Source of the DNA: Pleodorina starrii
Taxonomy: Eukaryota; Chlorophyta; Chlorophyceae; Chlamydomonadales; Volvocaceae
Length of the DNA: 64,000 nt
Assembly: GCA_030267565.1 (NCBI GenBank)
Contig: BRXU01000086.1
Location: 22,276 to 86,275 of the forward strand
Direction of reading: 5' to 3'
The notes beneath the pieces were generated by a model. The model worked only from the letters and a program-made list of their open reading frames with translations. It ran no database searches and was not told where the DNA came from. Both the position numbers and the translations under genes were made by a program. Positions 1 to 64,000 of the stretch are shown one piece after another. Position 1 is the first letter of the stretch, and every line of letters begins with the position of its first letter.

Positions 1-475
1 AGATGCGGAACATCACCTGGCCGAGCTTCTTCTGGGTGCTTGGGCTAAGGCGTGCCAGCTTGTCGTTCCACTCCGCCTTGTCATGAAAGAAGACGTCGAA
101 ACTCTCGGGTGGAAGGTCTAGGCGGTAGGAGAGGTATCGGTCGATGACGACCTCCCGCACGAATTCCTCAATGAACCGATAGGTTCTGCAGATGGCCATC
201 CAGAGCAGGGCCTGGGCCTCGTCATGGTCAGCCTCGTCGGCAAGAAATGCCAATTCCTCGGCGGACAGAGCTGACAATCGTAGGACGATTTCATTCAGGA
301 CCCGCCGGTTCGACGCAACCTTCGGCAGGGCCGTCGCCCCAGCATCTCGGGCCCGCTCAAGCGTCGCCGCCCAAGCCTCGCCCGGAACGTACAGTTTGGC
401 CACGGCTCGGCTTTCGAGCAGCAGGAGACCACCCGTCGTGAAGGACATTCGGTAGGAAGTCATATCTGACGACAT
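1..475 (-). CDS. brxA: BREX protein BrxA (DUF1819), 3' end cut by window edge
   Basis: BrxA is a small DNA-binding protein usually encoded first in BREX anti-phage operons. The frame starts at an ATG at 475 (a second ATG at 463 is possible) and stays open without a stop to base 1, giving about 158 residues of a roughly 200-residue family. The N-terminus reads SYRMSFTTGGLLLLES, followed by a helical middle containing WMAICRTYRFIEEFVREV and then FDVFFHDKAEWND. These match the order and wording of the DUF1819 family as I know it. No strong Shine-Dalgarno sequence is visible. The exonuclease gene upstream ends 46 bp away on the same strand. The following BREX genes would lie beyond the left edge. 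Confidence 0.85.
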   Translation of the reverse strand, partial: MSSDMTSYRMSFTTGGLLLLESRAVAKLYVPGEAWAATLERARDAGATALPKVASNRRVLNEIVLRLSALSAEELAFLADEADHDEAQALLWMAICRTYRFIEEFVREVVIDRYLSYRLDLPPESFDVFFHDKAEWNDKLARLSPSTQKKLGQVMFRI

Positions 476-8087: not shown

Positions 8088-8165
8088 ATGGCCAAGAAAA
8101 AGTTCTTTTACATTTCCGACAAATTAAGTAATGGCGCTTTCTTGACCGTCATCGCTATGGCCTGA
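8088..8165 (+). CDS. Possible 25-residue peptide
   Basis: A short ATG frame (MAKKKFFYISDKL ... TVIAMA) has a basic start and a hydrophobic end. The ribosome-binding site is weak and there is no homology I can name. It lies between units 2 and 3 of the array and may be chance. Confidence 0.2.
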   Translation: MAKKKFFYISDKLSNGAFLTVIAMA

Positions 8166-9567: not shown

Positions 9568-9777
9568 CGATCAGGTCTCCTTGCGGCGGCCTGAATCACG
9601 CAAAGGGCGTAAAATCAATGGGTCTGGAACCTAAGGCAGATGTGCTTAACAAGACAGAAGCGGCGATTGCCGCCAAAGAAATTCGTAACATGAAAAAACT
9701 CCGAACAAGACGACGGACTGATATTCGCAGCCTGTTGCAACCTGTCCAGTCATTTCACCCGATCCTGTCCAAATTAT

Positions 9778-9803
9778 AGCCCCGCCACCGTGCGGGGCTT
9801 TTT
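9778..9803 (+). terminator. Rho-independent terminator upstream of the amidase remnant
   Basis: AGCCCCGC at 9778-9785 pairs with GCGGGGCT at 9792-9799 and is followed by TTTTTC. It closes a short open region downstream of the IS element. Confidence 0.8.
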
Positions 9804-9830
9804 CATGTTAACACCCACGAGGAGGTAGCC

Positions 9831-10428
9831 ATGCCGCACTTTCCCATCAAGTACATCGTGCTGCACTACAGCGCGACCTATCCCAACCAGGATTACGGCG
9901 TGGCCGACATCCGCAAGATGCACCTTGCGCGCGGGTTCAACGACGTCGGCTATCACTACGTCCTTCGGCGCAGCGGGGCGGTCGATAAGGGCCGCCCGGA
10001 CACGGTCGTCGGTGCGCATGTCTCAGGCCGTAACACCGGCAGCCTAGGCATCGGGGGCATCGAGCGCGCCACCAGCCCCAATGTTGGCGTCGACAACCGC
10101 ACCGAGGCGCAGAAAGCCGCAACGGTGAAACTAGTCCGCGATCTTCTGGCCAAGCATCCCGGCGCCCAGATCGTCGACCACCGTGATCTGGCAACCGACC
10201 CAGTGCTCCGGCTTCGACGTGCGGAGCTGGTGGGCCGCGGCTAACGCCCGGCCGCCTGTCATCAACAGCGGTCCGCCGAGGCCCCTGCCCTCTCCGGCTT
10301 CCGTCGTCACTATGCCCTTAAAGAACCGCTGTTCGAATTCGATGCCTGAGACTTCTGAGGAGGTTCGGTCACGAGCGTCCGACAAGTGGGGCTACAAGCC
10401 TCATGGCTGGCCGGACGACCGCAAGTAG
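9831..10428 (+). pseudogene. N-acetylmuramoyl-L-alanine amidase (phage endolysin type), frameshifted
   Basis: The product would be a T7-lysozyme/PGRP-like amidase that cleaves peptidoglycan. The first frame (9831-10244) starts MPHFPIKYIVLHYSATYP, with a zinc-ligand His, and runs through GYHYVLRRSG and HPGAQIVDHRDLA, with the second His. It then shifts. The expected continuation with the third zinc ligand (QCSGFDVRSWW) is in the next frame, which runs on to 10428. The break lies at about 10190-10195, where one extra base in GGCAACCG explains the shift. A good GAGGAGG precedes the start. Without the Cys, the protein made from the first frame should lack a complete zinc site. It looks like prophage debris. 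Confidence 0.75.
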
Positions 10429-46790: not shown

Positions 46791-46970
46791 TTGAGTCAGA
46801 AAACGATCGACGTAAACCCATCTCTCATTTGGTCCATCCCTCACTGGCTGCGTGGCGGTTTCAAGAAATCTGACCAGGGAAAGATCGTTTTTTCCTTCAC
46901 AATCCTGTTGCTCAAGGCCGGCACCATCTCGGCTTTTGTTGATAGGATCAAAGAAAAGATGCTGGCATGA
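46791..46970 (+). CDS. 59-residue protein heading the GmrSD-like operon (TTG start)
   Basis: This short frame starts at TTG, seven bases after a GGAG, and its stop overlaps the ATG of the next gene (ATGA at 46967-46970). The peptide reads SQKTIDVNPSLIWSIPHWLR, then SFTILLLKAGTISAFVDR, and ends with a basic helix. The composition is typical of a coding sequence and there is no stop in frame back to 46763. The overlap implies translational coupling with the nuclease. No family is recognised; a partner or control peptide of the nuclease is possible. Confidence 0.6.
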   Translation: MSQKTIDVNPSLIWSIPHWLRGGFKKSDQGKIVFSFTILLLKAGTISAFVDRIKEKMLA

Positions 46971-49069
46971 AGGCGACCGACGCAAACCTTCTAGCCTTCA
47001 TCAGCAAGGCCCCGCAATTTGTTATCCCAATTTACCAGCGGACCTACAGCTGGACGGAAAAGGAATGCCGTCAACTATGGGAAGATGTGCGCCGTGCTGG
47101 TCGAAGGGATCATATCCCCGTGCATTTCCTTGGCTCGGTCGTGTATGTCGAAGAAAGCCTATCGACTAACACCAGTCGCTCTCCGCAGCTGGTGATCGAC
47201 GGGCAGCAGCGCCTGACGTCGGTCATGCTACTGCTTGCCGCCCTTTCACGGATTATAAAGAATGGTGAGCCTGTCGACGGCTTCTCGGCTAAAAAGATAC
47301 GCAACCGCTATTTGCTCGATCCAGACGAGGATGGGGAGCGAGCTTTCAAGCTGCTCCTGTCAAAGACCGACCGTACGACCCTGAATTCTATTGTTGCAGA
47401 AGATGACCTGCCCGAGGCTGTATCGATCCGGGTAAAGGAGAACTTCGATTTGTTTTTGCGTTGGCTAGAACAGGACCCGGAGGCGGTGGCCGAGATATGC
47501 ACTGGGCTGAACAAGCTAATGATCGTCGATGTTGCACTTAGCCGTGAACATGACAATCCGCAGCTGATTTTCGAGAGCATGAACTCGACTGGAAAGGAGC
47601 TTTCGCAGGCCGATTTAATTCGGAACTTTGTGTTGATGGGACTGGAGCCAAAGCTGCAAACGCGGCTTTACGAGCAATACTGGCGCAAAATGGAGGAAGG
47701 GTTCGGTCAAGGGGCTTATGTGGCCCATTTCGACAGTTTCATGCGTCATTACCTCACTAGCGTAACCGGGATGATCCCGCGACAAGGCGATGTTTACATC
47801 GCCTATAAGACTTATTCGCACGAGCAAGCCGCCAAAGATCGCGATGTCGAAGAGCTTGTTCGCGAAGTATGGGAGTTCTCTCGCTACTACCGTGCGTTAG
47901 TGCTCGGACAAGAGAAGGACAAGACGCTGGCCTTCTCATTTAAAGATCTGCGAGAGCTAAAGGTAGATGTCGCATATCCTTTCTTGCTGGAAGTCTATCG
48001 TGATTATGACGCCAACCTGCTTACCGCCGAAGATTTTATAGAAATTGTTCAATTAGTCGAAGCCTACGTCTTTCGTCGGGCAATCTGTGCTGTACCGACC
48101 AATTCACTAAACCAGACCTTTGCTTCCTTCGGGCGCGAGCTGAAGAAAGACAGGTACTTGGAAAGCGTGAAAGCGAACTTCTTAAAATTGCGGTCGTATC
48201 GCCGTTTCCCCCGAGAGGAGGAGTTTGTCGCACGCATTCAAGAGCGCGATCTCTACAATTTTCGGAACCGCTCCTACTGGCTGCGCAAGTTCGAAAACTA
48301 CGGCAGGAAGGAGCGTGTCAGCGTCGATGACTACACGATCGAGCATATCCTACCACAGAATGAAAACCTGTCAAAGGAATGGCGCGAAGCACTGGGCGAT
48401 GACTGGGCTACAGTACAGGAGAAATGGCTGCATACTCTCGGAAACCTGACGCTGACTGGGTACAATTCCGAGTACAGCGACAACTCCTTTGCCCTGAAGC
48501 GTGATATGGAAGGAGGCTTCAAGCAAAGCCCTCTGCGCGTCAATCAAGGCCTCGGCCAGCTGGAAACGTGGAATGAGACCGAGATCAAGGTACGTGCTGA
48601 AAAGATGGCGCGGCAGGCTGCTATGGTATGGGACATGCCTAACCTTCCTCAAGATATCCTTAAGGCCTATCAGGAACAGGCGGAGACCTCGACTGGATAT
48701 TCAATCGAAGATCATCCTTATCTGATAAGCGGAAAGATGCGCCAGCTATTCGACGATTTCCGCCGTGAGGTAAAGACGCTGGACGCTTGTGTGACTGAAC
48801 AATTTTTAAAGCTCTACGTTGCCTACAAGGCTGAAACGAATTTTGTTGATGTGGTGCCACAGGCCAAAGCATTGCGACTGTCTCTCAATATTAATCCTCA
48901 AGAACTTTCGGACCCTAAGAATATGGTTGTTGATGTTACGGGAGTTGGCCGATGGGGGAATGGAAACTCTGAGGTAAAGCTCACAGAACCGCAGGACCTG
49001 CACTATGTTTTGGGGCTAGTGCGCCAAGCGCTTGAGCGACAGTTTGGGGCAGAGGACAGCAATATATGA
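46967..49069 (+). CDS. DUF262-DUF1524 protein (GmrSD/BrxU-like type IV restriction enzyme)
   Basis: This 700-residue protein fuses both GmrSD halves. The N-terminal DUF262 domain has PIYQRTYSWTEKECRQLWED and the nucleotide-binding QLVIDGQQRLTSVMLLLAAL. The DUF1524 HNH nuclease near residue 458 has DDYTIEHILPQNENLSKEW with the His of the active site. GmrSD and BrxU use NTP hydrolysis to cut DNA with modified (for example glucosylated or hydroxymethylated) cytosines. BrxU is typically part of BREX islands, which fits here. It overlaps both the small ORF before it and the next gene by 4 bp. Confidence 0.88.
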   Translation: MKATDANLLAFISKAPQFVIPIYQRTYSWTEKECRQLWEDVRRAGRRDHIPVHFLGSVVYVEESLSTNTSRSPQLVIDGQQRLTSVMLLLAALSRIIKNGEPVDGFSAKKIRNRYLLDPDEDGERAFKLLLSKTDRTTLNSIVAEDDLPEAVSIRVKENFDLFLRWLEQDPEAVAEICTGLNKLMIVDVALSREHDNPQLIFESMNSTGKELSQADLIRNFVLMGLEPKLQTRLYEQYWRKMEEGFGQGAYVAHFDSFMRHYLTSVTGMIPRQGDVYIAYKTYSHEQAAKDRDVEELVREVWEFSRYYRALVLGQEKDKTLAFSFKDLRELKVDVAYPFLLEVYRDYDANLLTAEDFIEIVQLVEAYVFRRAICAVPTNSLNQTFASFGRELKKDRYLESVKANFLKLRSYRRFPREEEFVARIQERDLYNFRNRSYWLRKFENYGRKERVSVDDYTIEHILPQNENLSKEWREALGDDWATVQEKWLHTLGNLTLTGYNSEYSDNSFALKRDMEGGFKQSPLRVNQGLGQLETWNETEIKVRAEKMARQAAMVWDMPNLPQDILKAYQEQAETSTGYSIEDHPYLISGKMRQLFDDFRREVKTLDACVTEQFLKLYVAYKAETNFVDVVPQAKALRLSLNINPQELSDPKNMVVDVTGVGRWGNGNSEVKLTEPQDLHYVLGLVRQALERQFGAEDSNI

Positions 49070-49455: not shown

Positions 49456-49559
49456 ACTTATTTTACGTGTTATTTTAGGTATGAAATGATTCCGTGCCAA
49501 TCAAATGAGGCTAAAATGATCTCCAAGTTTGAGCGTACGCTTGGGGAGGGTCAAGAGTG

Positions 49560-50792: not shown

Positions 50793-53700
50793 TGCGGATC
50801 CGTAGTCTTTCCCTAGAGCGTTTCGGCCATTTCACCGACCGGTCATTCGATTTCGGACCGGGCGGCGATCGCGCGGATTTCCATATCATCTACGGCCCGA
50901 ACGAAGCCGGGAAGACGACCACGATGGAGGCCGCGCTTCGGCTCTTCTACGGTTTTCCGCTGCGCGAGGACTATGCCTTCAAGCATGCACGCAGCAATCT
51001 GCAGGTCTCCGCCGTGCTGGAGATCGGCGGTGCAGTACGGCGCTTTACCCGCCTGCCCAAGCGCGCGGGGTCCTTGGTGGACGAGACGGGAACAGCGCTG
51101 CCGGAGGCCGCTCTATCGGCGCATCTGGCAGGCCTGTCGCAGGACGATTACCGGCGCCTTCTCTGTCTTGACGACGACACCATCGAGCGTGGCGGCGAAG
51201 AGATCGCCAATGCCCAAGGTGATATTGGCCGGTTGCTGTTTTCCGCGGCGGCGGGCGTCGCCGATCTCAGCGGCGTTCTGGACGGGGTCCGGGACCAGGC
51301 CGACACGCTGTGGAAGCAGCGCGTGCGGAGTACCCGCATGGCCAATCTTAAGCGCGATCTGGCTGAGGTTGAGCGGCAGATCAAGGAGCGGGATGTCACG
51401 GCCAGTGCATGGAAGGCCCTCAAGAAGGACCTGACCAAGGCGCAGGAGGCAGAGCGGGATGCTCGCAGGACGCGCGACGCCTTGAACGCCGTCCGTGCAA
51501 CGATTGAAAGGCAGAAGCGTGCGCTTCCGCTGATGGCTGAGATCACCAGCCTGGAGGAAGCGATTGCGCCCTGTGCAGCCTACCCCGACCAGCTCGATTT
51601 CGACCCTGAGCGCCTGATTTTACTGCGCAGCGATCGCGGCGTCGCTTCGCAGAATGTCGATCGTCTGACCGCCGAACTAGCCGCGTTGGCGGAGTGGCAA
51701 AATCGCATGTCCGTCAACCCCGCGCTCGAGGCGCTTGCGACCGCTCTGGATGATCTGGATGATCTCAGCGCCCGCAATCGCGGGGCGCATCTGGACCTCG
51801 AGAGACGCCAGGACGAACAGCTTGTGGCAGAGGCTGCCATGACACGGGCGATGCAGGATCTTGGGGTCGCTTCGTCCGAGGCTGACCCCCAGTCGCTGGT
51901 CCTGTCGGCGGGGGGTATCGCGGCACTCGAGAGCGCCCGGGAAGCTTTGCGCGAGGCGGTTGTCCGCGAAGCGGCAGAAGCTCGCGAGACGGCCGATCTC
52001 CAAGGCAAGGCGGACGCTGCGGCGGCGGCCGTTCAAGACTGTTTGCCCCAAACGGAGGGTACTCCGCGGATCGCCGACATCCTCCTGCGCTTCCACGCCG
52101 ACGACCTGGCACCGGCGCATGCCGCCGCGCTGCAGGCCATCGAGGCCGCGAGGGCCAAGGCCGCTCGGTCGTTGACGGTGTTGGCCCATGGCACCGTCAT
52201 ATTCTACCAAGTGCCGGATTGTCCTTCGTCCCTGGTCCGCGCGACGGAGTGGGCCGACCGTCACGACGTGCTACGCGCCGATCTGCATGCTGCCATTGCA
52301 AGGCGCGATGACCACCTTGCGGATCGCGCCGCCCGCCACGCACAGGCAGAGGCGATGACACGCGGGACGAACATCGTCTCCGATGAGGAGGCCGAGGCTT
52401 TGCTAGCGGCGCGTGAAGACCGGTGGTCGGAGCATCTGGCGGCCTTGGACAGCCCTTCCGCCGCCGTATTTCATGATGCGCTGCGCAGGCATGACGCGGC
52501 AACGGATACACGACTGGGGCGGGCCAGCGAACTGGGACAGCTGCGTCAGATCGAGCAGGCAGCAGCCGAGGCAGATGCCCGTGCAGCGCAGGCGGACCGG
52601 AGCATCAAGGCCTTGCAAGCCGAGATCAGCGGCATCGAAGATGCCGTCAGTGAGGTGGCCCTGCAGGTCGGTCTGCCTGGGAGCCTATCGCCGCAAGAGT
52701 GGCTGGTATGGGTGACCCGGCACGATGAAGCCAGAGAAGAGGCCTTCGCTCTACGCGAGGCGCAGGAGGCCAACCATGGGGTTTTGCAACGCAGCGAAGC
52801 CTTGCGAGCCGAACTGGCAACGCTCCTGCCGTTTAATCCGGTTGACCTTGGCGGAGCGCTGAATGCGGCGCGGATGATGGCGGAAACGGATCGCCTGCAG
52901 ACCGATACGCGGACCAAAGCCGAAGATACGTTGCGCCAGGCGCGTCGCGATCTGGCCCAGCGAGAGGAGCGGCTCAGCAGCGCCCAGGATGCTTCGCGCA
53001 GAGCCCGCGAGGCCTGGCAGCAGCTGGTCGCCGAGCATCTGGGGGATGCGATTTCACCGGATCGCCTGATGACCACACTGGACCCCTTGCGGGCGCTGCG
53101 GGAGCATGAAACGGCCCGTGCCGCCGCTGAACAGCGCGTTGACGCCATGCGGGCGGATCAGGACCGTTTCGCCCGCGAGGTTGAAGCCTTGGCGCAGACC
53201 CATGGCGCTGAGGTCCAGCTGACGGCCATGCAAACCTATTCAGCATTGAAAGGTTTGGCGGAGCAGGCGCGCATCACCCGAGACGCTGTCCTGAAACTAG
53301 ATCAGGATATAGAGGCCGCCACGACTGAAAAGGCCTTTAATGAAGATAGTATGCGTCGCATTGCCCAGGAGGTCGCGGCGATCGCGGTCGTTTTCCCAGA
53401 CTCTGCCTCCCTGACCGACATCGACCTGCTGCGCCAAGTCGCGGCGCGGGCGCAGCAGGTCATCGCCGATCGTGCCACGTTAGCCAGCCGCCAGCGCAGC
53501 GTCCTGTTGGAACTGGGTGTCGACGACATCGCGACGGCCCGCGAACAGCTTGCCGGCCTCCCTGCGGCGGGCTTGGACGCAGCCTTGAGCAGCAACATCT
53601 CCGACCTCGAGCACGCTGAAGATAGGCTGACACAGGCAATACAGGACCGCGCCACGGCCGAGCATGCCCTGTCTCAGGTAAAAGGTGACGGGGAAATTGC

Positions 53701-54229
53701 CGCCCTCGTCGAGCGCAGGGCGACGCTGGAGCTGCAGCTCGAGGAGACCGCTCTTCAGTATCTCGAGATGTCCCTGGGCCATCACCTTGCCTCCGATGCA
53801 ATCCGCCGTTATCGGGACAGCCATCGCAGCGGGATGATGACTGCGACCGAGCAGTGCTTTGCCAGCCTCACGCATGGTGCTTATCCGTTCCTGACCACGC
53901 AAATCGAGAAGGACGCCGAGATCCTGTTGGCCGTCGACCGGAACGGCGCCAGCAAACGTGCTGCCGAAATGTCCAAGGGCACGCGCTTCCAGCTCTATTT
54001 GGCGCTGCGCGCTGCGGCCCACGAGCAGCTGGTGTCCCAAGGCACCAGGCTTCCGTTTTTTTGCGACGACATCTTTGAGACATTTGACGAAGATCGCACT
54101 AGTGCTGCCTGCCGAGTCATGGAAGCTATTGGAGGGAGGGGGCAAGCGATTTACCTAACGCATCATCGCCATGTCGTCGACATCGCCAGGAGCGTTTGCG
54201 ATGTGCAACCCATTCTCCATGAGCTTTGA
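50792..54229 (+). CDS. SbcC/YhaN-like SMC-type ATPase
   Basis: This 1145-residue protein has a Walker A (YGPNEAGKTTTMEAALRLF) near the start and long coiled coils in between. The C-terminal ABC signature is MSKGTRFQLYLALR, followed by Walker B (LPFFCDDIFETFDEDR) and the H-loop YLTHHRHVV. This is the YhaN layout, a Rad50/SbcC relative that controls the nuclease of the previous gene. The start overlaps the YhaO stop by 1 bp (TGATG). The coiled-coil region is rich in Ala, Arg, Glu. The IS66 element lies 204 bp downstream. Confidence 0.88.
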   Translation: MRIRSLSLERFGHFTDRSFDFGPGGDRADFHIIYGPNEAGKTTTMEAALRLFYGFPLREDYAFKHARSNLQVSAVLEIGGAVRRFTRLPKRAGSLVDETGTALPEAALSAHLAGLSQDDYRRLLCLDDDTIERGGEEIANAQGDIGRLLFSAAAGVADLSGVLDGVRDQADTLWKQRVRSTRMANLKRDLAEVERQIKERDVTASAWKALKKDLTKAQEAERDARRTRDALNAVRATIERQKRALPLMAEITSLEEAIAPCAAYPDQLDFDPERLILLRSDRGVASQNVDRLTAELAALAEWQNRMSVNPALEALATALDDLDDLSARNRGAHLDLERRQDEQLVAEAAMTRAMQDLGVASSEADPQSLVLSAGGIAALESAREALREAVVREAAEARETADLQGKADAAAAAVQDCLPQTEGTPRIADILLRFHADDLAPAHAAALQAIEAARAKAARSLTVLAHGTVIFYQVPDCPSSLVRATEWADRHDVLRADLHAAIARRDDHLADRAARHAQAEAMTRGTNIVSDEEAEALLAAREDRWSEHLAALDSPSAAVFHDALRRHDAATDTRLGRASELGQLRQIEQAAAEADARAAQADRSIKALQAEISGIEDAVSEVALQVGLPGSLSPQEWLVWVTRHDEAREEAFALREAQEANHGVLQRSEALRAELATLLPFNPVDLGGALNAARMMAETDRLQTDTRTKAEDTLRQARRDLAQREERLSSAQDASRRAREAWQQLVAEHLGDAISPDRLMTTLDPLRALREHETARAAAEQRVDAMRADQDRFAREVEALAQTHGAEVQLTAMQTYSALKGLAEQARITRDAVLKLDQDIEAATTEKAFNEDSMRRIAQEVAAIAVVFPDSASLTDIDLLRQVAARAQQVIADRATLASRQRSVLLELGVDDIATAREQLAGLPAAGLDAALSSNISDLEHAEDRLTQAIQDRATAEHALSQVKGDGEIAALVERRATLELQLEETALQYLEMSLGHHLASDAIRRYRDSHRSGMMTATEQCFASLTHGAYPFLTTQIEKDAEILLAVDRNGASKRAAEMSKGTRFQLYLALRAAAHEQLVSQGTRLPFFCDDIFETFDEDRTSAACRVMEAIGGRGQAIYLTHHRHVVDIARSVCDVQPILHEL

Positions 54230-54453: not shown

Positions 54454-55953
54454 CTACCCGTTCCAGTGCCATGGCAGCAGTTCATCGATCTTGGTGATCT
54501 TGTAGTCCGAGATGCGCGTAAGAGTGTCGGCGAGCCAAGCCTGTGGGTCGACACCATTTAGCTTGGCCGTTTCGATTAGGGTGTAGGCGATGGCGGCGGC
54601 CTTGCCGCCTGCCTCGGAGCCGACAAAGAGGTAGTTTTTACGGCCGAGGGCGACGGCGCGCATGCCACGTTCGGCAGCGTTGTTGTCGAGTTCGAGGATG
54701 CCGTGGTCGAGGTATGGGCGCAGGCGTTCCATTCTGGTCAGGGCATATCGGATAGCCGCGGCCAGCGGGGATTTGCCAGAGATCGTGGTGAGTTGCATGG
54801 CCAGCCATCGCTCCAGGTCGTCAAAGACCGGGGCCGCATGGGCGCGTCGCAATTCGGCGCGGCGTTCAGGTGGCGACCCTTTGGCCTGTTTCTCGACGGC
54901 ATAGAGTTGAGCTATCCGGCCGATGGCCTCTTCTGCAATCGGGGAGCCTTGCGACCTGTGGATGTCGACGAACTTGCGCCGGACATGGGCCATGCAGGCG
55001 ACCTCGCGGATGGCGCCGGAGCGGTAGAGATCCTCGAATCCGGCATAGCCGTCGGCATGCATCCAGCCGCGGAAGCGGGCGAGGTGATCCTTGGGGTGCT
55101 GGCCTTTCCGATCTCCCGAGAACCGATACCAAGCCGCCGGTGGCGCGGTTCCTGCCCACGGCCGTTCGTCGCGGGCATAGGTCCAGAGGCGTGCCGTCTG
55201 GGTCTTGCCGGTGCCGGGGGCGAGCATTCGCACCGGCGTGTCATCGGCGAAGATCGCTTCGGCCGACAGGACGTGGCGGCCAATGGCGTCAGCCAAGGGC
55301 TCCAGCAAGGCCGTGCTCTTGCCGACCCAGTCTGCCAGCGTAGAGCGATCCAGATCGAGCCCCTCACGGTCGAAGATCTGGCTTTGGCGGTAGAGCGGCA
55401 AGTGGTCGGCATACTTGCTGACCAAGACATGGGAGAGGAGGCCCGGCCCCGGGCGACCGCGCTCGATCGGGCGCGAGGGCAGCGGGGCTTGCACGAAGCG
55501 TTCGCAGCACGAGCAGGTCAGCCGAGGGCGGACGATCCGGTTCACGATGAAGCGCCCGGGGACGTATTCCAGCTCTTCCGTCACATCTTCCCCGATCCGG
55601 CGCAGGCAGCCGCCGCAATCGGCACAGGCATCGGAGCTAGGGGTCAGTTCCACTTCCATCCGCGAGATGTGGTCCGGGATCGGACGACGCTTGGGTTTGT
55701 CCTTCTCCTCGATGTCGGGCAGCTTCATCCGCGCCGTCATAGCAGCGGCAGCGATCTCGCTGGTCTCGAGGGCAAGCTGAAGCTGTTCCACCGTCTCGGA
55801 CGATGCCCCGAACCGATGGGCGCGGTGACCGGCCAGTTGATGGCGAAGCTTCTCGATCAGGATCGCCTGCGACTTCACCTCGGCCAGAAGCCGCGCAGTG
55901 AAGCTGCGCAGCTCCTCGGGGTCTTCCGGCAGGGTGAAGGCTTGATCGAGCAT
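54454..55953 (-). CDS. tnpC: IS66 transposase TnpC
   Basis: This 499-residue transposase has an N-terminal coiled coil and zinc-finger-like pairs (DACADCGGCLRRIGED, LTCSCCERFVQAPLP). The catalytic region includes IFADDTPVRML and GYAGFEDLYRSG, ending with YALTRMERLRPYLDHGILEL and DNNAAERGMRAVALGRKNYL, the IS66 signature. It is the enzyme that moves the element. The long plus-strand frames on top of it are antisense shadows. Confidence 0.95.
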   Translation of the reverse strand: MLDQAFTLPEDPEELRSFTARLLAEVKSQAILIEKLRHQLAGHRAHRFGASSETVEQLQLALETSEIAAAAMTARMKLPDIEEKDKPKRRPIPDHISRMEVELTPSSDACADCGGCLRRIGEDVTEELEYVPGRFIVNRIVRPRLTCSCCERFVQAPLPSRPIERGRPGPGLLSHVLVSKYADHLPLYRQSQIFDREGLDLDRSTLADWVGKSTALLEPLADAIGRHVLSAEAIFADDTPVRMLAPGTGKTQTARLWTYARDERPWAGTAPPAAWYRFSGDRKGQHPKDHLARFRGWMHADGYAGFEDLYRSGAIREVACMAHVRRKFVDIHRSQGSPIAEEAIGRIAQLYAVEKQAKGSPPERRAELRRAHAAPVFDDLERWLAMQLTTISGKSPLAAAIRYALTRMERLRPYLDHGILELDNNAAERGMRAVALGRKNYLFVGSEAGGKAAAIAYTLIETAKLNGVDPQAWLADTLTRISDYKITKIDELLPWHWNG

Positions 55954-56011
55954 ACACGCAGTTTATCCCACTGTATTCCTTGTGGGAATCATTGATTGCA
56001 CGACTGGCTGA

Positions 56012-56359
56012 CTATCCCGCGGCAAGGGGTCGCCACGTCCGTTCCGGGGTCCGCCAGTCGATCCCCTCCAGGAGCATCGACAACTGCGCCGGCGTCAGTG
56101 CCACCTTGCCCTCCTTGGCCGCGGGCCAGACGAACCGGCCCCGTTCCAGCCGCTTCATGAACATGCAGGCCCCCTGGCCATCCCACCAGATCACCTTGAC
56201 CAAGTCGCCGCGACGGCCGCGGAAGACGAACAGATGCCCGGCAAACGGGTCCTGCTTCAGCACAGCCTCGGCCTGCGCGGTCAGTGCCGCAAAGCCCTTG
56301 CGCATGTCCGTCACCCCGGCCGCCAGCCAGACCCGCGTGCTGACTGGCACCGGGATCAT
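56012..56359 (-). CDS. tnpB: IS66 accessory protein TnpB
   Basis: This 115-residue protein has the family pattern [20 protein letters not shown] and [20 protein letters not shown]. It is required with TnpA for IS66 transposition. It overlaps tnpA by 4 bp. No enzymatic motif is present. Confidence 0.94.
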
Positions 56360-56757
56360 GCTGTCAGCCCCCGGATCAGCCGCGCCAGCGCCTCAGGATC
56401 GTAGCTGCCGGTGATGCGCATCCGATGACCGCCCGCAAGCTCGACTTCGATCAGTTCCTGTGGACGTGTCGGCTCGCTGGTCACAACCAGATCATCCTTC
56501 CTGACATGGTCTATGATCTCCACGGGCAGGAAGGCAGGGGTAGCCGCCACTGCCGTTGTCTCAGGGGCATAACGCGGATCGCGCAGCCACTTGAACACCA
56601 TGTTGGCGTTCGCCGCATAACGGCGCGCCACCTGCGCAACCGAAACGCCCGGAGCCGTCGTCTGCAGGCAGATCGACCGCTTCTCTTCGTCCGTCCAAAG
56701 CCGCTTTGTCCGACGCGCCACGCTCGCACCATAGTGTCCACCATCTATAGCGGACAC
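56356..56757 (-). CDS. tnpA: IS66 accessory protein TnpA
   Basis: This 133-residue protein has an N-terminal helix-turn-helix ([20 protein letters not shown] and [20 protein letters not shown]) and C-terminal [11 protein letters not shown]. It is the first gene of the IS66 operon and probably binds the ends. Confidence 0.93.
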
Positions 56758-57064: not shown

Positions 57065-58699
57065 TCAGCACTGTTCTGACCCTATGTAGTTCTTAGTGAG
57101 GTCTCGTGCCGCATAACGTACGGCATTGGGTAGCTCACTTGGAGGGCGAATATCAGGTGCGTCATATCGAGAGTAGGAGAGTCCCATAGCTACAAGGAGC
57201 CTACCCACTCCCCTGCCTGCCGCTAGCCTTACATCAATATCGTCACGATCGGGTTCCAGTTCGCGCAAACGCAGGTCTAGGGGCGGCGCATGGTGAGTCA
57301 TACTATTCTGGCACCAAGGCACTGCAGAGCGATGTGGTTGAGAATGGCGTCCGCCACCAATAAGGATGGTTTCAAGCTCGAATGGCTTCTTCCAGTTTGC
57401 TGGATTGACGTCCATCTTTTCTCGGATCGCCTTCTTGGCTACCAGCGCAATATGACTTCCCAAGACTTTGATCGCTCGTTCACTGTTCCCGATTTCTTTG
57501 CACCATGCAGAGATTACCTCCGCTCCGAAGCACTCTACGGATTTCGCAAAAATAGTAATCGGCGGGTTGGCAGCCTCGCGGTAGATGAAAAAGACCGTGT
57601 CGACCGTTAGGCCACCGATATCGACAAGCAAATAGCGGCCATCGCGTCGTTGATGCGATGTCAGAAAGCCTTGGAGTGCTCCAGCAAGTTCTGGCTGAAG
57701 TGCGATAAGGTCGCAGTCTCCTGAACTGGACGTTTCCAAAAGGCGCAGGATAGCGGCCTCGGTTACTTCTCCACCGGACTCGAGGATGCGACCAGCGACA
57801 AGCGCCACATGCCTTTGGTCTGGATGGGCCTCCGCGATTGATGAGAAAGGCATGCCGAGGTTGACTTCGTCCACCACAACCGTGCTGTTCTTAAAAAGAC
57901 CCGGCTGCTCCTTCTGGAGCCAGCCGACCCCATGTCGCACAACGAGAACAATCCAAGCGATCATGGCTGCTTTGACAGTCTCGCGATCTCCCCCGCCAAA
58001 ATTTAAGAGATCCACTTTAAGCCGGTCCCTTGGGATTGCCCCCGCACAAGGTTCGATAGAGTACCGGCCATCATTCGATTTCCACAGAAGCGTTCGCCAA
58101 TAATAAGGATGGCCATCTGCTTGGAACCATTCCGGCGCCGGAACTGGGAGGCCGACGTTGTCAGCAAACGGTAAACGTAGTACGATTTTGGTCGCTGTCG
58201 AACCAATATCTAAACCAACAATCACGTCCGTTCGGTCACCAGCCACCTCAAGATTATGACCGAATCTTACAGAATTTGGCAAAAGCCAGCCTAGGCGGAC
58301 TGCCTCAATCTCTCCCTCTGTCGGGCGATCTTCCGGTACGTCCGCCCCCACTGCAAGCCGCCGATCCAAAGCCGACAGCGAGTCTCGATCCACATTGATC
58401 GTGGAAAGATTCCGGCCTCTCGATGCTGTGTCAAGAGCATGCGCTTCTACCTTTGGGGTCACGGTGCTGGTCGGAAGCGGCTTCTTCTTAGCTACCCTCA
58501 GAGGCAACGATCTTACAGGAGCTTTTACTCTCGTTTTCGAAGCGGAAGGCGTTTTGTGACTTATTGCCGAATGCACCTTACCGCTTGAGCCCTGCGCTTT
58601 TTTTTGCTTATTTTCTTTATAAGGTTTTTGCCCGCTCGCTTCGCCGGGAAAAAGATCTAGGAGGTCTTTGAAGGATTTAAGCAGCATGCGCTCTGTCAT
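57065..58699 (-). CDS. Actin/Hsp70-fold ATPase downstream of the SNF2 helicase
   Basis: This 544-residue protein has a basic, low-complexity N-terminal 110 residues. An Hsp70/actin-type ATPase domain follows: VGLDIGSTATKIVL (phosphate 1, residues 161-174), YLLVDIGGLTVDTVFF (phosphate 2, about 356-371) and LIGGGRHS (adenosine, about 447-454). It has no substrate-binding domain like DnaK's. The start overlaps the helicase stop by 4 bp. Partner function with the helicase is suggested by coupling; I know of no described role for this pair in BREX. Confidence 0.75.
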   Translation of the reverse strand: MTERMLLKSFKDLLDLFPGEASGQKPYKENKQKKAQGSSGKVHSAISHKTPSASKTRVKAPVRSLPLRVAKKKPLPTSTVTPKVEAHALDTASRGRNLSTINVDRDSLSALDRRLAVGADVPEDRPTEGEIEAVRLGWLLPNSVRFGHNLEVAGDRTDVIVGLDIGSTATKIVLRLPFADNVGLPVPAPEWFQADGHPYYWRTLLWKSNDGRYSIEPCAGAIPRDRLKVDLLNFGGGDRETVKAAMIAWIVLVVRHGVGWLQKEQPGLFKNSTVVVDEVNLGMPFSSIAEAHPDQRHVALVAGRILESGGEVTEAAILRLLETSSSGDCDLIALQPELAGALQGFLTSHQRRDGRYLLVDIGGLTVDTVFFIYREAANPPITIFAKSVECFGAEVISAWCKEIGNSERAIKVLGSHIALVAKKAIREKMDVNPANWKKPFELETILIGGGRHSQPHRSAVPWCQNSMTHHAPPLDLRLRELEPDRDDIDVRLAAGRGVGRLLVAMGLSYSRYDAPDIRPPSELPNAVRYAARDLTKNYIGSEQC

Positions 58700-61600
58700 T
58701 GGCGTTGCTCCTCCACTTTGATGACAATTGCTGCGACCGTCATTGCCTCCCGTTCACAACTGACCCGACGTTGAAGCTGAAGGCGCCTGTCGGCAATTCG
58801 CTCTTGTAGCGCGCGAAGCCGGCCACGGTTCGCCGCTTCCATGCGCGAACCAGCCTTCTCAATCACGCGCTCGATCCGCGCAATGTCACGCGTCTCCGCG
58901 CGGTCCAGTGATGCCATTTGGATTGTCAGTCTGTCTTCCAACTCATCTTCTCGACGTTCCGCAGCATCGTCGAAAGCCTGCATGAGCTGACCCTCGACAA
59001 GCCCTTCGAGAAAATCAGCCGTTCCGTGCAAGTCGAGCTCTTCGCGAAGGCCCGCCAGTGGCGCACCTCGCTCTACGGCAGTCCTGATCGCGGACTCTGC
59101 CTGATCTGGAGATAGCAACTCCCCCGACCGAGCGTCGAGAAGACGCCACACTAGACGTGCATCGATTTGATCGGTCCCGAAACGCCATTCCTGGACGACG
59201 CCCGCATAGAAACCGGGGGGAAGGTCGATTTCCGCAGCTTGCAATCTAATGGCAAATGCCGACTCCGGTACGCCGCCTGCATCTTCGATGCCGTCAAAAA
59301 GGAAACGGACGAACGGATGGTTTGTCGTGAGCCGCGGAAGGCGCTTTCTAGAGCTTTCTTTTCCTAGCCGGAAGCTGGCAGCTTCCGTTTTCGAGACTAG
59401 TTCTCCGCCATCAGCACGGCGAGTCTCGCACCAATTTCGGAACGAGGATCGAGCCACGCTATCAAGGCGAACGTCCAGAAGAGATCGGCCCGGATCATAG
59501 ATCACGCGTGAGGCGGGGTAGAGATGCTCAAGAGCAGTCGCGACGTAGCCAGCGAGATCAGCTTCAGTAATCCAGCGACCATCCTTGCGCTTCTTCTCGA
59601 TTTCGTGGGCAATATAGTCGCCATGTGCAATAAGAGACGCAGCGCGCGCCTCAAGTTCAAGCTCATTTCTTCTATTATTTTCATAAGCTTGTGCAGACTG
59701 GTCAAGTCTCGCCGCACGCTGTTTGGCGGAAAGACCTGGATCCATTGTGATTGCCGTCAGCTCACGTTCTAGTTCGTCAGCGAGAATCGCCTCAAACCCG
59801 CCAAGGGCCTCCTCACAGAGCTTCAGTCTGAGATACAGCCGTTGCCAAATAACCGCCTCAATCGTTCCCTGATGCACAAAATTATAGATAAAAACCTTTT
59901 CCGACTTTTGACCTAGACGGTCGATACGGCCGATGCGCTGTTCGACCTTCATCGGATTCCAAGGCAAATCATAGTTTACGACGATCTGAGCGAAGTCCAG
60001 ATCAATGCCCTCGCTGCCAACTTCAGACGACAAGAGGATAGAAGTTTCAGGGTTGTCTCTGAATTGATCAAGAACCGCACCCCGATCTTTCACGTCCCCA
60101 TCAAGCCGGACAACGCCATAGCCTTCATCCCGAAGCCGACGCTCAAGGTAACGTAGCGTGGCACGGAACGTGGAAAAAACAATGAGCTTTCGCTGAATCC
60201 TACTTGATCTGATTTCACAAATCAGCTTTTCGAGCGCTCTATACTTTGTATCCTCGACGGCAAGAACTGCGGGATTCGGGTGTAGGAGTGCCGCCTGCCC
60301 GAGCAGATGGACGAGTCGCTCCTCCTCGGCTTCAGATAGATCCTCCGGTGCGTCATCTTCATAGCTGGAAGCTACGGGGCCGCCGGTGCGCCAATGTTCC
60401 AATGCCGCCGGGATCGAGGAGGCGAGCATGCGCTGCGGCATGACAGTTAGAAAACCTGCTGGACGCCCTGACCGAGCCGCGAAATCCCGCACAACGCCCG
60501 TCATTGCCGTGTAAACCAAAGCTTCCGCTTCAGTCATTTCTAGAATTTGCCCGTGCACTTCGCGGATCACACGGTACTCTTGCACATCGCGCCGTCGAGT
60601 TCGGTTGATTACGTTGGCGAGTTGGTTAAGACCGTCCAGGCGATGCGCTAGCTCTGCACGCTGGGCTGGAGCCAGTTCGGTTTTTACGGCAACTTCCGCG
60701 CGAATGGCGGTCAGCGTCTTTGTCCCTGACAGAAGGTCGTGGCGGGATGCGTCTTCAAGATAGGATGTTATTTCCTCAATTGCTCCACCCTCGAGCACAG
60801 CATCGCGGGCTTTGATGATAGGCGTGTTGGCATCAACAATTGCCTCAAGTGCGTCCTGTTCAGCGAAAGTATCCTCGTCAAGAAGTCGCAGGAGCGAATG
60901 CAAATCTCGGTTGCTGAGGTTGATTGGTGTTGCCGACAGCATGACGACGTGTTGGGCAATTTTTGCCAGAAGCTGGCCAAGTTGATGCGTTTGCGTTCCT
61001 GAATTGCGCATGTGATGCGCTTCATCGATAACCACCATATCAAGACGGTCATCGAAAGGGTCGAGTTCCTCGATGGCGTTCGCAAGTATGTCCGCCGGTC
61101 GCCTTTCGCGGTCCTCGGGCCGTCTTGGGCGAATAGATTGCATCCCACAAATGCCGATGAAGCCGCGGTACTGTAACGTCGCTGAAGTTAACGCCTCTTT
61201 CAGGTCAGAAGGTGACATGATCCGCGCATCTAAATCGAACTTCGTCGTAAGTTCCGTGCGCCACTTCTCGCAGAGGATTTTCGGACAGACGATGAGAAGG
61301 CGGCGGTATCTGAGACGTGCGGAAAGCTCTGTCCAGATCAAACCGGCTTCAATGGTCTTGCCTAGACCGACCTCGTCGGCAATCAGCAAATGTCCTGTAG
61401 GCGAATCGAGCATCTTCAAGACCGGCTTGAACTGATGCGCGTAAAAGTCGGTGTCGGTGGCTTCAAGCGAATAGAGCATGTCTGACATCCGCCCTGAAAG
61501 CCTCACGTGGGCAAGGTGCCTGCGAAGCTCCCTGATATTGCTTAGGCTCCCGGACCGCAGAAGTTCGCTGGCAGTCTCAGTCGTTGATGGCACCCTCTCA

Positions 61601-61764
61601 AGCTGGTCGAGGGGGATCGTTTTTGTTCCGGTTGCGAATTGGACACGGGCACGTAACCGAGATGTGGAAGAAAGAATCTCCACGATCTGGCCTGCATCTC
61701 GGCTATTACTCCTCTTACGGACAAAATCTCCAGCACCGAGAGAAAAAATACCTGAACTTTGCAT
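58696..61764 (-). CDS. SNF2/RapA-like helicase (DrmD-like)
   Basis: This 1022-residue protein has Walker A in LLIADEVGLGKTIEAGLIW (residues 126-144), DEAH box VVIDEAHHMRN (about 244-254), motif III MLSATPINLSNRDL and helicase C motifs FSTFRATLRYLERRL, LLSSEVGSEGIDL and EQRIGRIDRLGQ. This is the RapA/SNF2 branch to which DrmD of DISARM also belongs. The C-terminal third (about 690-1022) is helical with no recognised nuclease. It starts 235 bp after the brxL stop on the same strand. It probably tracks on double-stranded DNA. Confidence 0.9.
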   Translation of the reverse strand: MQSSGIFSLGAGDFVRKRSNSRDAGQIVEILSSTSRLRARVQFATGTKTIPLDQLERVPSTTETASELLRSGSLSNIRELRRHLAHVRLSGRMSDMLYSLEATDTDFYAHQFKPVLKMLDSPTGHLLIADEVGLGKTIEAGLIWTELSARLRYRRLLIVCPKILCEKWRTELTTKFDLDARIMSPSDLKEALTSATLQYRGFIGICGMQSIRPRRPEDRERRPADILANAIEELDPFDDRLDMVVIDEAHHMRNSGTQTHQLGQLLAKIAQHVVMLSATPINLSNRDLHSLLRLLDEDTFAEQDALEAIVDANTPIIKARDAVLEGGAIEEITSYLEDASRHDLLSGTKTLTAIRAEVAVKTELAPAQRAELAHRLDGLNQLANVINRTRRRDVQEYRVIREVHGQILEMTEAEALVYTAMTGVVRDFAARSGRPAGFLTVMPQRMLASSIPAALEHWRTGGPVASSYEDDAPEDLSEAEEERLVHLLGQAALLHPNPAVLAVEDTKYRALEKLICEIRSSRIQRKLIVFSTFRATLRYLERRLRDEGYGVVRLDGDVKDRGAVLDQFRDNPETSILLSSEVGSEGIDLDFAQIVVNYDLPWNPMKVEQRIGRIDRLGQKSEKVFIYNFVHQGTIEAVIWQRLYLRLKLCEEALGGFEAILADELERELTAITMDPGLSAKQRAARLDQSAQAYENNRRNELELEARAASLIAHGDYIAHEIEKKRKDGRWITEADLAGYVATALEHLYPASRVIYDPGRSLLDVRLDSVARSSFRNWCETRRADGGELVSKTEAASFRLGKESSRKRLPRLTTNHPFVRFLFDGIEDAGGVPESAFAIRLQAAEIDLPPGFYAGVVQEWRFGTDQIDARLVWRLLDARSGELLSPDQAESAIRTAVERGAPLAGLREELDLHGTADFLEGLVEGQLMQAFDDAAERREDELEDRLTIQMASLDRAETRDIARIERVIEKAGSRMEAANRGRLRALQERIADRRLQLQRRVSCEREAMTVAAIVIKVEEQRQ

Positions 61765-61999
61765 GGTGTATGACTGTGCCCGCTACGATTAAATCGAAAA
61801 ATATTTTCAATGCATCAATGGAGATTGGATAAGACCGGAGGCCGGGCGGTGGGTCAAGTAGAGCTTCGAATGCTGGTTAAGCAGCGTATCGGCTAAGATG
61901 GCCTATAATATCGGGAACAGCGTATTGACGCAGCTAATTCGATAACAAACGGAGTTTAATAATAATGTTTTTTTGGGGGCTCTGGAGCATTACTTAAGC
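61765..61999. promoter_or_regulatory. Gap between brxL and the helicase, probable promoter
   Basis: AT-rich stretch (gattaaatcgaaaaatattttc at its left end in plus sense, ataataatgttttttt at its right) just upstream of the helicase on the minus strand. A separate promoter is likely because this gap is long compared with the tight overlaps downstream. No clear operator was found. Confidence 0.35.
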
Positions 62000-63997
62000 T
62001 TATGCAAACGAACCATCCGTCTTCTCCTTCAGATAGGTCACGTAAAAAGCCTTTACCATTCGATGCTCCTGAAGGCGGTCACCAAGGTTGAAACCGTTCT
62101 CACGACGCATCGGCGCCTGGAAGATATCTAGCCCACGATCAAGGACGATCTTCCAACCATTGTCCGTGACGATATCACGAGCATGGGCCGTGCCGCTGGT
62201 GTCGTATGCCCAAGTGAAATCCACGCCCGTGCCGACACAAGCTTCAGAAATGCTCTCGAGAAGCTCGCGCTGCTTCGGTACATTTCCGTCATCCGGAGCC
62301 GTGACCAGATGAACGGAAATCTGATCCTCCGGCGCCATTCGGGAAATAACCATTTCAACGAACTCCATCATATTTTTGATCTGATAGAAGTATCGAATAT
62401 AGGGATCTGTCACGATGATGCGGGATGCCCCTTGAAGGTGTTGGCCAAACAACGTGTCATAGCTGATCCCCTTGCGGTTCTCGGCAAAGACATGATGCCC
62501 TTCAGCAGGTTTCGGCGCCGTGAATGCAGGATTGTAATGTGGCAGCGGTTGCGATGGCTTGATGGCGTCAGTAGGCATTTGGACGCCGTTCACATCTGCG
62601 CTTTCAGGGACCTCAGCGCCCGGCGTGCCTTTGCGATAATAGAACTGCGGAAACTCTTCCTCTTCCACCGTGCGCACATGGCGTTTTCTGCCGTCGGAGC
62701 CGGTGTAGTAGAAGTCCACCTCTGGATAGGTCGCGTCGATGCGGAATAGCTGGTCCTTGACCCGCTTGCGGCTCTCCAAGGCAAGCTTGAGGAGCTCTTC
62801 GGTCTCTTCCTCGGTCTCGCCACCCGCAGGAAACAAAATCTTCAGCAGGCCCGACATGGTTTTCGAGATGGCATCGCGATCCCGCGTCGAGATCTGTTCA
62901 CTGAACTTGAAGTACCGATCGGGCCGGTTGGAGTAATCCTCCTGACGCAGGTGACGCAGGATCTCGGCCAGATAATCCACGATGAACCCGTAGCCCCGGG
63001 TGAACATCTCGCCGCGGATAACGTCAATTTCCCATCCCGGCAGGTAAGCATGGAGCCGGTCGATGAAGGCCGAGTCATGGAACTGCGGCGGCAGCGCTTC
63101 GAAGAGGTCGCTGTTCTTCAGCATGTAGGGCACGTTGTGATCGGTGTTGCCGACAAAGGAAAAGCTTGCCTCGGCCCCCATCGGGTTGATCCCCCGCGAG
63201 AAGGTCTTGTTCGCCATATAGTTTTTCATGATGTCGACGAGCGCCTTGTTGGCAGTCTTCTCGCGCCCCGCAAATTCGTCGAAAGCCACCACGTCCCAAT
63301 ACCCGACCAGACCAATCCGCCCGTTCGAGTTGTTCACGAATAGCTTGGGGATGCTGACCTCTCCCCCGGAGATCAGCTGCCCGTGCGGAGAAAACTCGGA
63401 ATAAATATGGGACTTGCCGGTCCCTTTTGGGCCCAGTTCGATGATGTTGTAGTTGCGTTCGACAAAGGGGATCAGCCGCATTAGCTGCAGCAGCTTGCTG
63501 CGACGGCCGAACATGTCCGGGTTGAACCCGATCGACTGCATCAGCAGGTCGATCCATTCGTCGGTGCTGAATTTTGCCCGACCCGCCTTGTAGTTCTCAT
63601 AATCCACGCGGGCGATCTGGATCGGCTTGATCGTCTCGAGGATCCAGGGCGAGGTCCGGGCATCTTCCGAGAACTCGTATTGGACGTCTGCGATGCACCA
63701 CACCCCCGTCACCAGCAGCTTGGGGTGCGCCTTGACGGTGCCACTGTCCACGGCCACTTTCTTAATCCCCAGATTATCGAAGCTCGCCTCGTAGCTGTCG
63801 GTCTTTTCGTTCAGGGACACGCTGATCTGGTCAATGACTTTGTAGCGTCCACGTTCCTTGATCGTGGACTGGATCAGGCCTGCCTCGCTGCGATGGACAT
63901 AGTGCTTGCGGAGGATCTCCTTGACCGTCTCTATGCCGGTCGCGATCGACGCCTCGTCATCTGTCGCACAATACTGACCCAGCAGGTATTCAAGCAC
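62000..63997 (-). CDS. brxL: BREX protein BrxL with MIT_C-like C-terminus, 5' end cut by window edge
   Basis: The visible 665 residues start in the conserved BrxL stretch LEYLLGQYCATDDEAS; the true start lies beyond the right edge (some 30-40 residues missing). The AAA+ core has Walker A LGPKGTGKSHIY (188-199 of the fragment), Walker B VVAFDEFAG (236-244) and VGNTDHN. In place of a Lon-type protease domain, residues about 508-660 resemble the MIT C-terminal domain of human MITD1: GISYDTLFGQHL, VTDPYIRYFYQIKNMMEFVE and TDNGWKIVLDRGLDIFQAP. BrxL is a DNA-binding ATPase required for defence in type 1 BREX. Confidence 0.85.
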   Translation of the reverse strand: MLEYLLGQYCATDDEASIATGIETVKEILRKHYVHRSEAGLIQSTIKERGRYKVIDQISVSLNEKTDSYEASFDNLGIKKVAVDSGTVKAHPKLLVTGVWCIADVQYEFSEDARTSPWILETIKPIQIARVDYENYKAGRAKFSTDEWIDLLMQSIGFNPDMFGRRSKLLQLMRLIPFVERNYNIIELGPKGTGKSHIYSEFSPHGQLISGGEVSIPKLFVNNSNGRIGLVGYWDVVAFDEFAGREKTANKALVDIMKNYMANKTFSRGINPMGAEASFSFVGNTDHNVPYMLKNSDLFEALPPQFHDSAFIDRLHAYLPGWEIDVIRGEMFTRGYGFIVDYLAEILRHLRQEDYSNRPDRYFKFSEQISTRDRDAISKTMSGLLKILFPAGGETEEETEELLKLALESRKRVKDQLFRIDATYPEVDFYYTGSDGRKRHVRTVEEEEFPQFYYRKGTPGAEVPESADVNGVQMPTDAIKPSQPLPHYNPAFTAPKPAEGHHVFAENRKGISYDTLFGQHLQGASRIIVTDPYIRYFYQIKNMMEFVEMVISRMAPEDQISVHLVTAPDDGNVPKQRELLESISEACVGTGVDFTWAYDTSGTAHARDIVTDNGWKIVLDRGLDIFQAPMRRENGFNLGDRLQEHRMVKAFYVTYLKEKTDGSFA

Positions 63998-64000
63998 GTA

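Follow-up and report, generated by a model that had tools for sequence, protein, structure and literature searches.

The stretch of DNA analysed here, which we call the window, comprises 64,000 nucleotides (G000:C86:22276-86275) of an assembly of 136 Mb in 95 contigs. The contig from which it comes, C86, has a length of 86,275 bp, and its opening 11.9 kb form a gap-rich copy of its closing 11.9 kb, with 81-86% identity. Because the two ends copy each other, we interpret C86 as a plasmid that is circular and about 74.4 kb long. Paracoccus plasmids match bases 1-25000 of the window at 91-96% identity, covering up to 46% of that stretch. The Pfam HSP70 model (PF00012) has 75 matches in the assembly, none of which lies on C86; since many of the assembly's Hsp70 matches look like fragments with the character of exons, the assembly is presumably eukaryotic and C86 a contig of bacterial origin within it. 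The features relevant to this study are given in Table 1.

Table 1. Features of the window (coordinates are those of the window)
Feature	Position	Strand	Basis
RapA/DrmD-type SNF2 helicase, 1022 aa, predicted motor of the pair	58696..61764	-	domain models, clade placement
Hsp70-like ATPase, 544 aa	57065..58699	-	ORF, fold comparison, alignments
ATGA, 4-bp stop-start overlap of the helicase and Hsp70-like genes	58696..58699	-	sequence
Gap from brxL to the helicase gene, 235 bp	61765..61999	-	
brxL, truncated at the window end; closing gene of the type 1 BREX operon (context)	62000..64000	-	
brxA, partial, at the opposite window end (context)	1..457	-	
Transposase genes, which we take to be IS66-like, downstream of the helicase/Hsp70-like pair	54454..56757	-	
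GmrSD-family (DUF262) nuclease (context)	46967..49069	+	

The helicase and Hsp70-like genes lie downstream of brxL and on its strand. That a RapA/DrmD-like helicase and an Hsp70-fold ATPase are coupled by a four-base overlap behind brxL, as the initial annotation had stated, is confirmed from the sequence. The plasmid carries brxA, brxB, brxC, pglX, pglZ and brxL, and hence a complete type 1 BREX set, of which brxB, brxC, pglX and pglZ lie outside the window and are reached across the circle junction of C86. The BREX models score 178 bits for brxA, 144 bits for brxB, 1702 bits for brxC and 967 bits for pglZ (for the piece scanned), and pglX is split into two ORFs that overlap (738 and 723 bits), where the frame break may be genuine or may stem from misassembly. 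The C-terminus of BrxL is a PLD/HKD-type domain (PF16565, 143 bits), and a BrxL variant with a C-terminal PLD-type domain is described for type 1 BREX in the available part of PMC12839542. The GmrSD-family gene lies about 8 kb from the pair.

The pair and the BREX genes differ in base composition. The GC3 values of the helicase and Hsp70-like genes are 0.548 and 0.514, against 0.72-0.78 for the BREX genes and 0.64 for the second pglX ORF, and among the 35 plasmid ORFs of at least 200 aa the Hsp70-like gene ranks lowest and the helicase gene third lowest. This contrast favours the view that the pair joined the BREX genes late, and as one piece. A scan of the gap between brxL and the helicase gene revealed no promoter- or terminator-like site on the minus strand; over the scan as a whole, the number of such sites was about equal to that in shuffled sequences.

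DrmD-family helicases are already known, and the helicase of the pair resembles them. Its SNF2 and Helicase_C domains exceed their cut-offs, and the PADLOC DrmD model PDLC02623 spans the whole protein with 673 bits (no cut-off is shown for this model). Its score with the NCBIfam DrmD model NF038317, on the other hand, is 359 bits, which is below the cut-off of 610. The best of the BrxHI/BrxHII models reaches 231 bits, against the 673 bits of PDLC02623, and BrxHII is not the top match. Its closest solved relative is RapA, and its score with the RapA model is 157 bits, far below the cut-off of 576. At E <=1e-30, 2769 of the 7997 scored candidates are relatives of the helicase. A predicted model of its structure, made with no alignment, had a pLDDT of 38.5 and was unusable. 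We considered whether the gene is the drmD of a DISARM locus at this site and ruled this out: the NCBIfam cut-off is missed, and the one DrmA model used gave no match across the whole assembly.

The Hsp70-like protein consists of a flexible, basic N-terminus (residues 1-95), a nucleotide-binding domain (NBD, about 145-525) and a conserved C-terminal tail (536-544). It has the fold of the Hsp70 NBD, and it lacks a substrate-binding domain, because the NBD ends near residue 525 of 544; this part of the initial annotation was borne out. PF00012 does not match the protein at E <=1, and it is unmatched by any model in three libraries, while a distant relative from Aminobacter has a weak match (17 bits) to the PADLOC candidate PDC-M61B. 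Literature searches for PDC-M61, PDC-M27 and ZacA returned unrelated papers only. A sequence search of the PDB gave no match, a profile search of the PDB gave weak, scattered matches that include ParM and PilM, and the profile could be aligned only weakly, over 66 columns, with DnaK from this assembly. As the Foldseek TM-scores are low (0.27-0.47), the case for the fold rests mainly on a second structure aligner, whose list consisted of Foldseek's own candidates.

Judging from the alignments, the ATPase motifs of the Hsp70-like protein are conserved: 21 columns are invariant across 19 sequences, including residues from all three nucleotide motifs, and the motif residues are invariant in 19 of 19; D164, K228, E337 and D360 are examples of invariant residues. 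The alignments contain neither L014, in which the gene is broken, nor L012, which represents the lineage of L010 a second time, and L013, with a helicase truncated where its contig stops, was dropped from the conservation count of the Hsp70-partnered clade. The long, basic N-terminus that the initial annotation had noted is indeed basic here, but it does not define the family; over 17 pairs the N-terminal extension varies from 7 to 295 residues, and in five of them K/R do not outnumber D/E. We therefore dropped it as a key feature. Thirteen relatives of the Hsp70-like protein, the window's own counted, were found at E <=1e-5. In 11 linked pairs, identity to the window's proteins is 16-32% for the Hsp70-like protein and 30-48% for the helicase; thus, the Hsp70-like protein diverges faster, which makes its relatives more difficult to detect.

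The pair recurs. At loci selected by the Hsp70-like gene, and with duplicates removed, a helicase of the same family adjoins this gene in 14 of 14 other lineages, namely Sphingobium/Rhizorhabdus, Aminobacter, a Rhodobacteraceae MAG, Rubellimicrobium (with a broken Hsp70-like gene), Xanthobacteraceae, Rhizobiaceae, Vicinamibacteria, Photobacterium, Variovorax, and the genomes G092, G1264, G1362, G1245 and G1460. By source, the helicase adjoins in 3/3 plasmids, 8/8 genome contigs and 5/5 further non-centre genomes (at L022 it is present only as a cut piece); L001-L008, the assembly's Hsp70 matches, were left out of the ORF survey. Selection by the helicase leads to the same result, because the six plasmid records among 72,556 that contain it at >=80% coverage are exactly the six with an Hsp70-like gene alongside: one each of Aminobacter, Leptolyngbya (where the Hsp70-like gene is upstream), Shinella and Cyanobacterium, and two of Sphingobium. 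In 16 co-directional cases, the window counted, the spacing between the two genes, taken as the longest ORFs, is -43 to +28 bp.

The pair is also rare. It is present in at least 2 of 385, 4 of 399 and 2 of 394 genomes in three sampled groups, the centre genomes counted, and non-centre occurrences amount to at least 5 of 1175 sampled genomes in the three groups. A search of 390 genomes with the DrmD model found only the centre genome, and one of 394 genomes with the helicase found the centre genome and G957, in which the helicase has a sacsin-type partner; both counts are lower bounds, since scoring was restricted to the two top candidates of each genome. Carriage of the pair by viruses was considered, and none of 48 pattern matches in viral contigs was confirmed as a relative.

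Such a sparse distribution bears on one possible role, namely housekeeping related to RNA polymerase or to the plasmid, in the way that RapA recycles polymerase. The identity of the nearest solved helicase relative and the presence of the pair on six plasmid records and on the window plasmid would suit such a role. The low frequency of the pair, the RapA score given above and the defence neighbours described below speak against it, and we give this explanation hardly any weight.

Based on these data, we conclude that the two genes form a real and conserved module, the combination of which is new and the folds of which are known. The proposal that this is a candidate new module was thus sound, and in the literature covered, which stopped short of supplements and most subscription papers, we recognised no description of the pair; a term search of the accessible part of PMC10853773 gave no match. 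That the pair might already be a named system was likewise not encountered in the literature, yet PADLOC would call the helicase DrmD.

The neighbourhood of the pair could be read in 14 contexts with readable flanks (the window, L010, L011, L015, L017, L018, L019, L020, L028-L030 and L054-L056), in which PADLOC was applied to selected neighbours. The pair is located behind brxL in two contexts, behind a DISARM- or ARMADA-like operon in four and near other defence genes in three, while in five the defence context is weak or absent; counted in another way, a clear defence neighbour is present in 9/14, a weak one in 2/14 and none in 3/14. A methyltransferase-linked operon precedes the pair in six of the 14 contexts (the window, L056, L018, L019, L020 and L054).

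The second BREX-linked context is that of the distant genome G1245. Its contig L056 starts with the C-terminal 306 aa of a BrxL (353 bits), after which a GmrSD gene and the pair are encoded in the same direction, and another contig, C733, encodes a BrxC (85 bits over 220-825) whose neighbours are a pglX-like ORF and two small ORFs occupying the positions of brxA and brxB. The brxL and brxC genes of G1245 are thus on separate, unjoined contigs, on which pglZ was not seen. The helicase of G1245 belongs to a different subclade from that of the window, and the two BREX links therefore look independent. The GmrSD-family genes near both BREX-linked pairs are noteworthy, as type 1 BREX is complemented by a GmrSD-type enzyme according to the available part of PMC12839542. 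GmrSD-family genes adjoin the pair in L015, L017 and L056, and L015 also has a type III methyltransferase.

In the DISARM-like context L018/L043, the helicase of the pair is additional to a canonical DrmD (PDLC02621, 1096 bits), which is accompanied by DrmMI (1245). In L020/L045, DrmMII (308), DrmA (729) and DrmB (262) are followed by a NERD-UvrD helicase, the pair and Vsr, and L054 has DrmMII (321), DrmA (739) and DrmB (278). The arrangement is shared by L020 and L054, which are closely related. The Photobacterium context L019/L044 contains an ARMADA II-like operon, and the order of genes there is a BrxHII/DrmD-like helicase, a type IIG-like methyltransferase, a DruE/YprA-type helicase, a UvrD helicase and then the pair. 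Hachiman and a restriction endonuclease are near the pair in L011, a PLD protein with weak similarity to ZacB is present in L010, and CRISPR cas1/cas2 lie about 7 kb away in L028. No clear defence system was found in the stretches read of L029, L030 and L055; the neighbours in L030 are toxin-antitoxin genes only, and in L055 the pair is followed by a 906-aa protein with no assigned family. It should be noted that neighbourhood is weak proof of cooperation, because defence islands gather unrelated systems. A defence role of the pair is nevertheless likely from its neighbourhoods.

These contexts also allow the relation of the pair to BREX to be judged. The pair could belong to a BREX subtype as one of its integral components, as may be suggested by its position behind brxL, on the same strand and next to a complete type 1 set, and by the order BrxL C-terminus, GmrSD gene and pair in G1245, given that GmrSD is also present on the window plasmid. 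However, BREX genes were found in only two of the 14 contexts, and tblastn and phmmer searches of the other 12 with the window's BREX proteins, which are of limited sensitivity (the BrxL of G1245 was recovered only at E 1e-8), gave no match. In addition, the base composition differs here, and the main text of a 2026 survey of BREX diversity (PMC12839542) mentions neither Hsp70 nor DrmD. We therefore consider an integral BREX component very improbable, and both distribution and composition argue against a constant set of BREX genes that includes the pair. The earlier suggestion that the pair is an accessory to BREX is supported only in part, by the two contexts behind brxL; the remaining contexts, DISARM-like, ARMADA-like or elsewhere, and the GC3 values point beyond BREX.

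It is also possible, although doubtful in our view, that the pair works on its own as a complete defence system, lodged beside BREX and merely residing within defence islands. The neighbours vary from locus to locus, no clear defence operon was seen in three loci (L029, L030 and L055), and in the window both the GC3 contrast (0.51-0.55 for the pair and 0.64-0.78 for the BREX genes) and the gap that separates it from brxL would be in line with an independent unit. On the other hand, scans with domain models recognised no nuclease or other effector domain in either protein, and the association with methyltransferase-linked operons in 6/14 contexts, even with L020 and L054 being closely related, speaks against a mere lodger.

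The two proteins have evolved in step. The pairwise distances of the helicases and of the Hsp70-like proteins correlate with r 0.892 over 17 pairs (0/5000 permutations as high) and with r 0.94 over the 12 of these pairs for which linkage was seen (0/5000 permutations), the other five having been matched only through contigs of identical length. One of these five, P0032/P0008, is out of step, with identities of 46% for the helicase and 62% for the Hsp70-like protein. As shared descent alone can yield such a correlation, it indicates co-inheritance and is no proof of contact. Two helicase trees were built, with 28 and 30 rows; in each of them the helicases with an Hsp70-like partner (18 and 19 rows) group into a single clade, supported at 100/99. 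Its sister clade (5 and 4 rows; support 97/93 and 97/91) has another partner: in L031, L032, L035, L036 and L037 a mutually homologous protein of 1034-1113 aa is encoded directly downstream of the helicase gene, with a sacsin domain over the cut-off in both proteins scanned. A sacsin-type partner would suit a chaperone-like job as well as motor regulation. The outgroup SNF2 loci L038-L042 have no Hsp70-like gene in a profile search (0/5), and L038 has a weak match of 28.6 bits to a sacsin-type profile. Two further helicases, the canonical DrmD of L043 and the BrxHII-like one of L044, are placed on long branches outside the Hsp70-partnered clade. Neither tree includes L022, which has only part of the helicase, or L016, which belongs to the lineage of L010, and the second one also left out L037, P0016, P0018 and P0019.

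The strict pairing and the co-divergence would equally fit a chaperone dedicated to folding or assembling the large helicase, with no role in DNA handling, and so would the sacsin/Hsp90-type ATPase in the corresponding slot of the sister clade, as if any ATP-driven chaperone fold sufficed. However, an NBD that is not followed by a substrate-binding domain is not what a folding chaperone leads one to expect, and the five outgroup SNF2 loci do without an Hsp70-like gene, the weak sacsin-profile match of L038 being kept in mind. We find this explanation quite unlikely.

The reading that we prefer, with a probability of about 0.48, is that the pair is a mobile module of a motor and a chaperone-class ATPase that serves as a portable helper of modification-based defence. 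According to this reading, a RapA/DrmD-type SNF2 DNA motor would be bound, in a physical complex, by the Hsp70-NBD protein, and the latter would act as an ATP-driven regulatory or remodelling subunit of the motor. While travelling along incoming DNA, the motor would, jointly with its partner, displace or remodel bound proteins, letting the neighbouring system act; the Hsp70-NBD protein may sense ATP or the bound target and gate or power the stripping of proteins from foreign DNA. Marking and cutting would be supplied by the neighbouring system, the motor and the chaperone-class ATPase would be the constant unit, and the module would have an anti-phage effect. Actin and Hsp70 have a common fold, and INO80 may serve, in principle only, as a precedent for actin-family subunits on an SNF2 motor. 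A bolder version holds that the pair is a prokaryotic SNF2 remodelling complex on the principle of INO80 and SWI/SNF, in which a permanently attached actin/Hsp70-fold ATPase would gate the motor, and which would serve as a plug-in for several modification-based defences, stripping or remodelling protein-DNA complexes on invading DNA, with a sacsin/Hsp90-type ATPase as the gate in the sister clade; this we regard as unlikely.

Three points make the module worth pursuing. First, the module is masked by current tools, because PADLOC labels the helicase DrmD and leaves its partner unmatched. Second, that the pair follows BREX in two distant lineages and elsewhere follows operons resembling DISARM or ARMADA points to a step shared by modification-based defences, and this step is poorly understood for BREX. 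Third, the change from an Hsp70-type to an Hsp90/sacsin-type partner between sister clades makes the need of a defence motor for a chaperone ATPase testable.

Among known systems, the helicase resembles DrmD of DISARM in its full-length match to PDLC02623 and in the DISARM-like operons adjoining three relatives; in contrast to DrmD, it stays below the NCBIfam cut-off, and the canonical DrmD of L043/L018 is not part of its clade. The BrxHII and BREX-Related (DUF499) helicases are likewise RapA-like SNF2 proteins in defence operons, as described in the available part of PMC12839542, but their models score lower on the helicase of the pair and the outgroup loci have no Hsp70-like gene. ARMADA type II is comparable in that the Photobacterium pair lies behind an ARMADA II-like operon; unlike the pair, it has no Hsp70-like protein among the four proteins named in the available part of PMC12458937, and the terms hsp, chaperone and DnaK are absent from the main text of that paper.

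With regard to the Hsp70-like protein, CnuD of CoCoNuT is also an Hsp70-like NBD protein within a defence operon, and according to the accessible sections of PMC11090510 it combines an NBD with a substrate-binding domain, has degenerate Walker A-like motifs and accompanies McrB/McrC. The protein described here differs in that it has no substrate-binding domain, its motif residues are invariant and its partner is an SNF2 motor; in the subset of neighbour ORFs scanned, no match to McrB/McrC was found. The GTPase-centred conflict systems, predicted conflict systems as far as the available text of PMC7159879 goes, contain an HSP70 reduced to the NBD, the peptide-binding domain being missing, but their companions in that text are HSP70, GrpE, DnaJ and GTPases, and not an SNF2 helicase. 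Finally, the N-terminus of Arp8 binds DNA and controls coupling in INO80, according to the available parts of PMC6098158 and PMC5969521. The Arp subunits of SWI/SNF and INO80 belong to different families, no docking helix is shown for the pair, and no nucleosome is involved; as an analogy only, they may nevertheless resemble the module described here in that a subunit with the actin/Hsp70-superfamily fold is placed on an SNF2 motor.

The distant genome G1245 provides a second BREX link of the helicase/Hsp70-like pair: on one strand of L056 (1-6980), the end of BrxL, a GmrSD nuclease, the helicase and the Hsp70-like protein are encoded in this order, and BrxC is encoded on a different contig (L061). 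A GmrSD nuclease is also present in the window (46967-49069); it comprises both halves plus a DUF5655 domain at the C-terminus, and it shares PADLOC family PDLC02693 with the GmrSD adjoining the pair in L017. Beside this GmrSD gene, a metallophosphatase gene overlaps an AAA_27 ATPase gene (49557-54229), and the two possibly constitute an SbcCD-like nuclease pair.

In the contig carrying the window, the first 11.9 kb (G000:C86:1-11911) duplicate the last 11.9 kb with many errors, pointing to a circular plasmid whose overlap was left unpolished. The pglX gene of its BREX operon is split over two overlapping ORFs in different frames (L009 2233-5731), reflecting a real break, phase variation or an assembly error. 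The brxA gene is closely preceded by a co-directional DEDDh exonuclease gene (window 522-1556).

In cyanobacterial L028, the Hsp70-like gene (7641-9875) precedes the helicase gene, and its product has a 295-residue N-terminal extension beginning with a hydrophobic-looking stretch. In two related genomes, the Hsp70-like gene is followed by one encoding a 906-908-aa protein of no recognised family (L055 5089-7809, L057 1337-4063), possibly a third component.

A second motor-chaperone pairing is found in the sister helicase clade, where a sacsin/Hsp90-type ATPase of 1034-1113 aa is encoded directly downstream of the helicase.

Sister-clade helicase and sacsin/Hsp90-type ATPase genes
Locus	Coordinates
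L031	7818-14138
L032	7977-14461
L035	5827-12559
L036	5324-11660
L037	5321-11661

Finally, two genes lie behind the pair in Sphingobium (L010 15220-19267), one encoding a 533-aa protein with weak similarity to ZacA, and the other an 822-aa PLD protein with weak similarity to ZacB.
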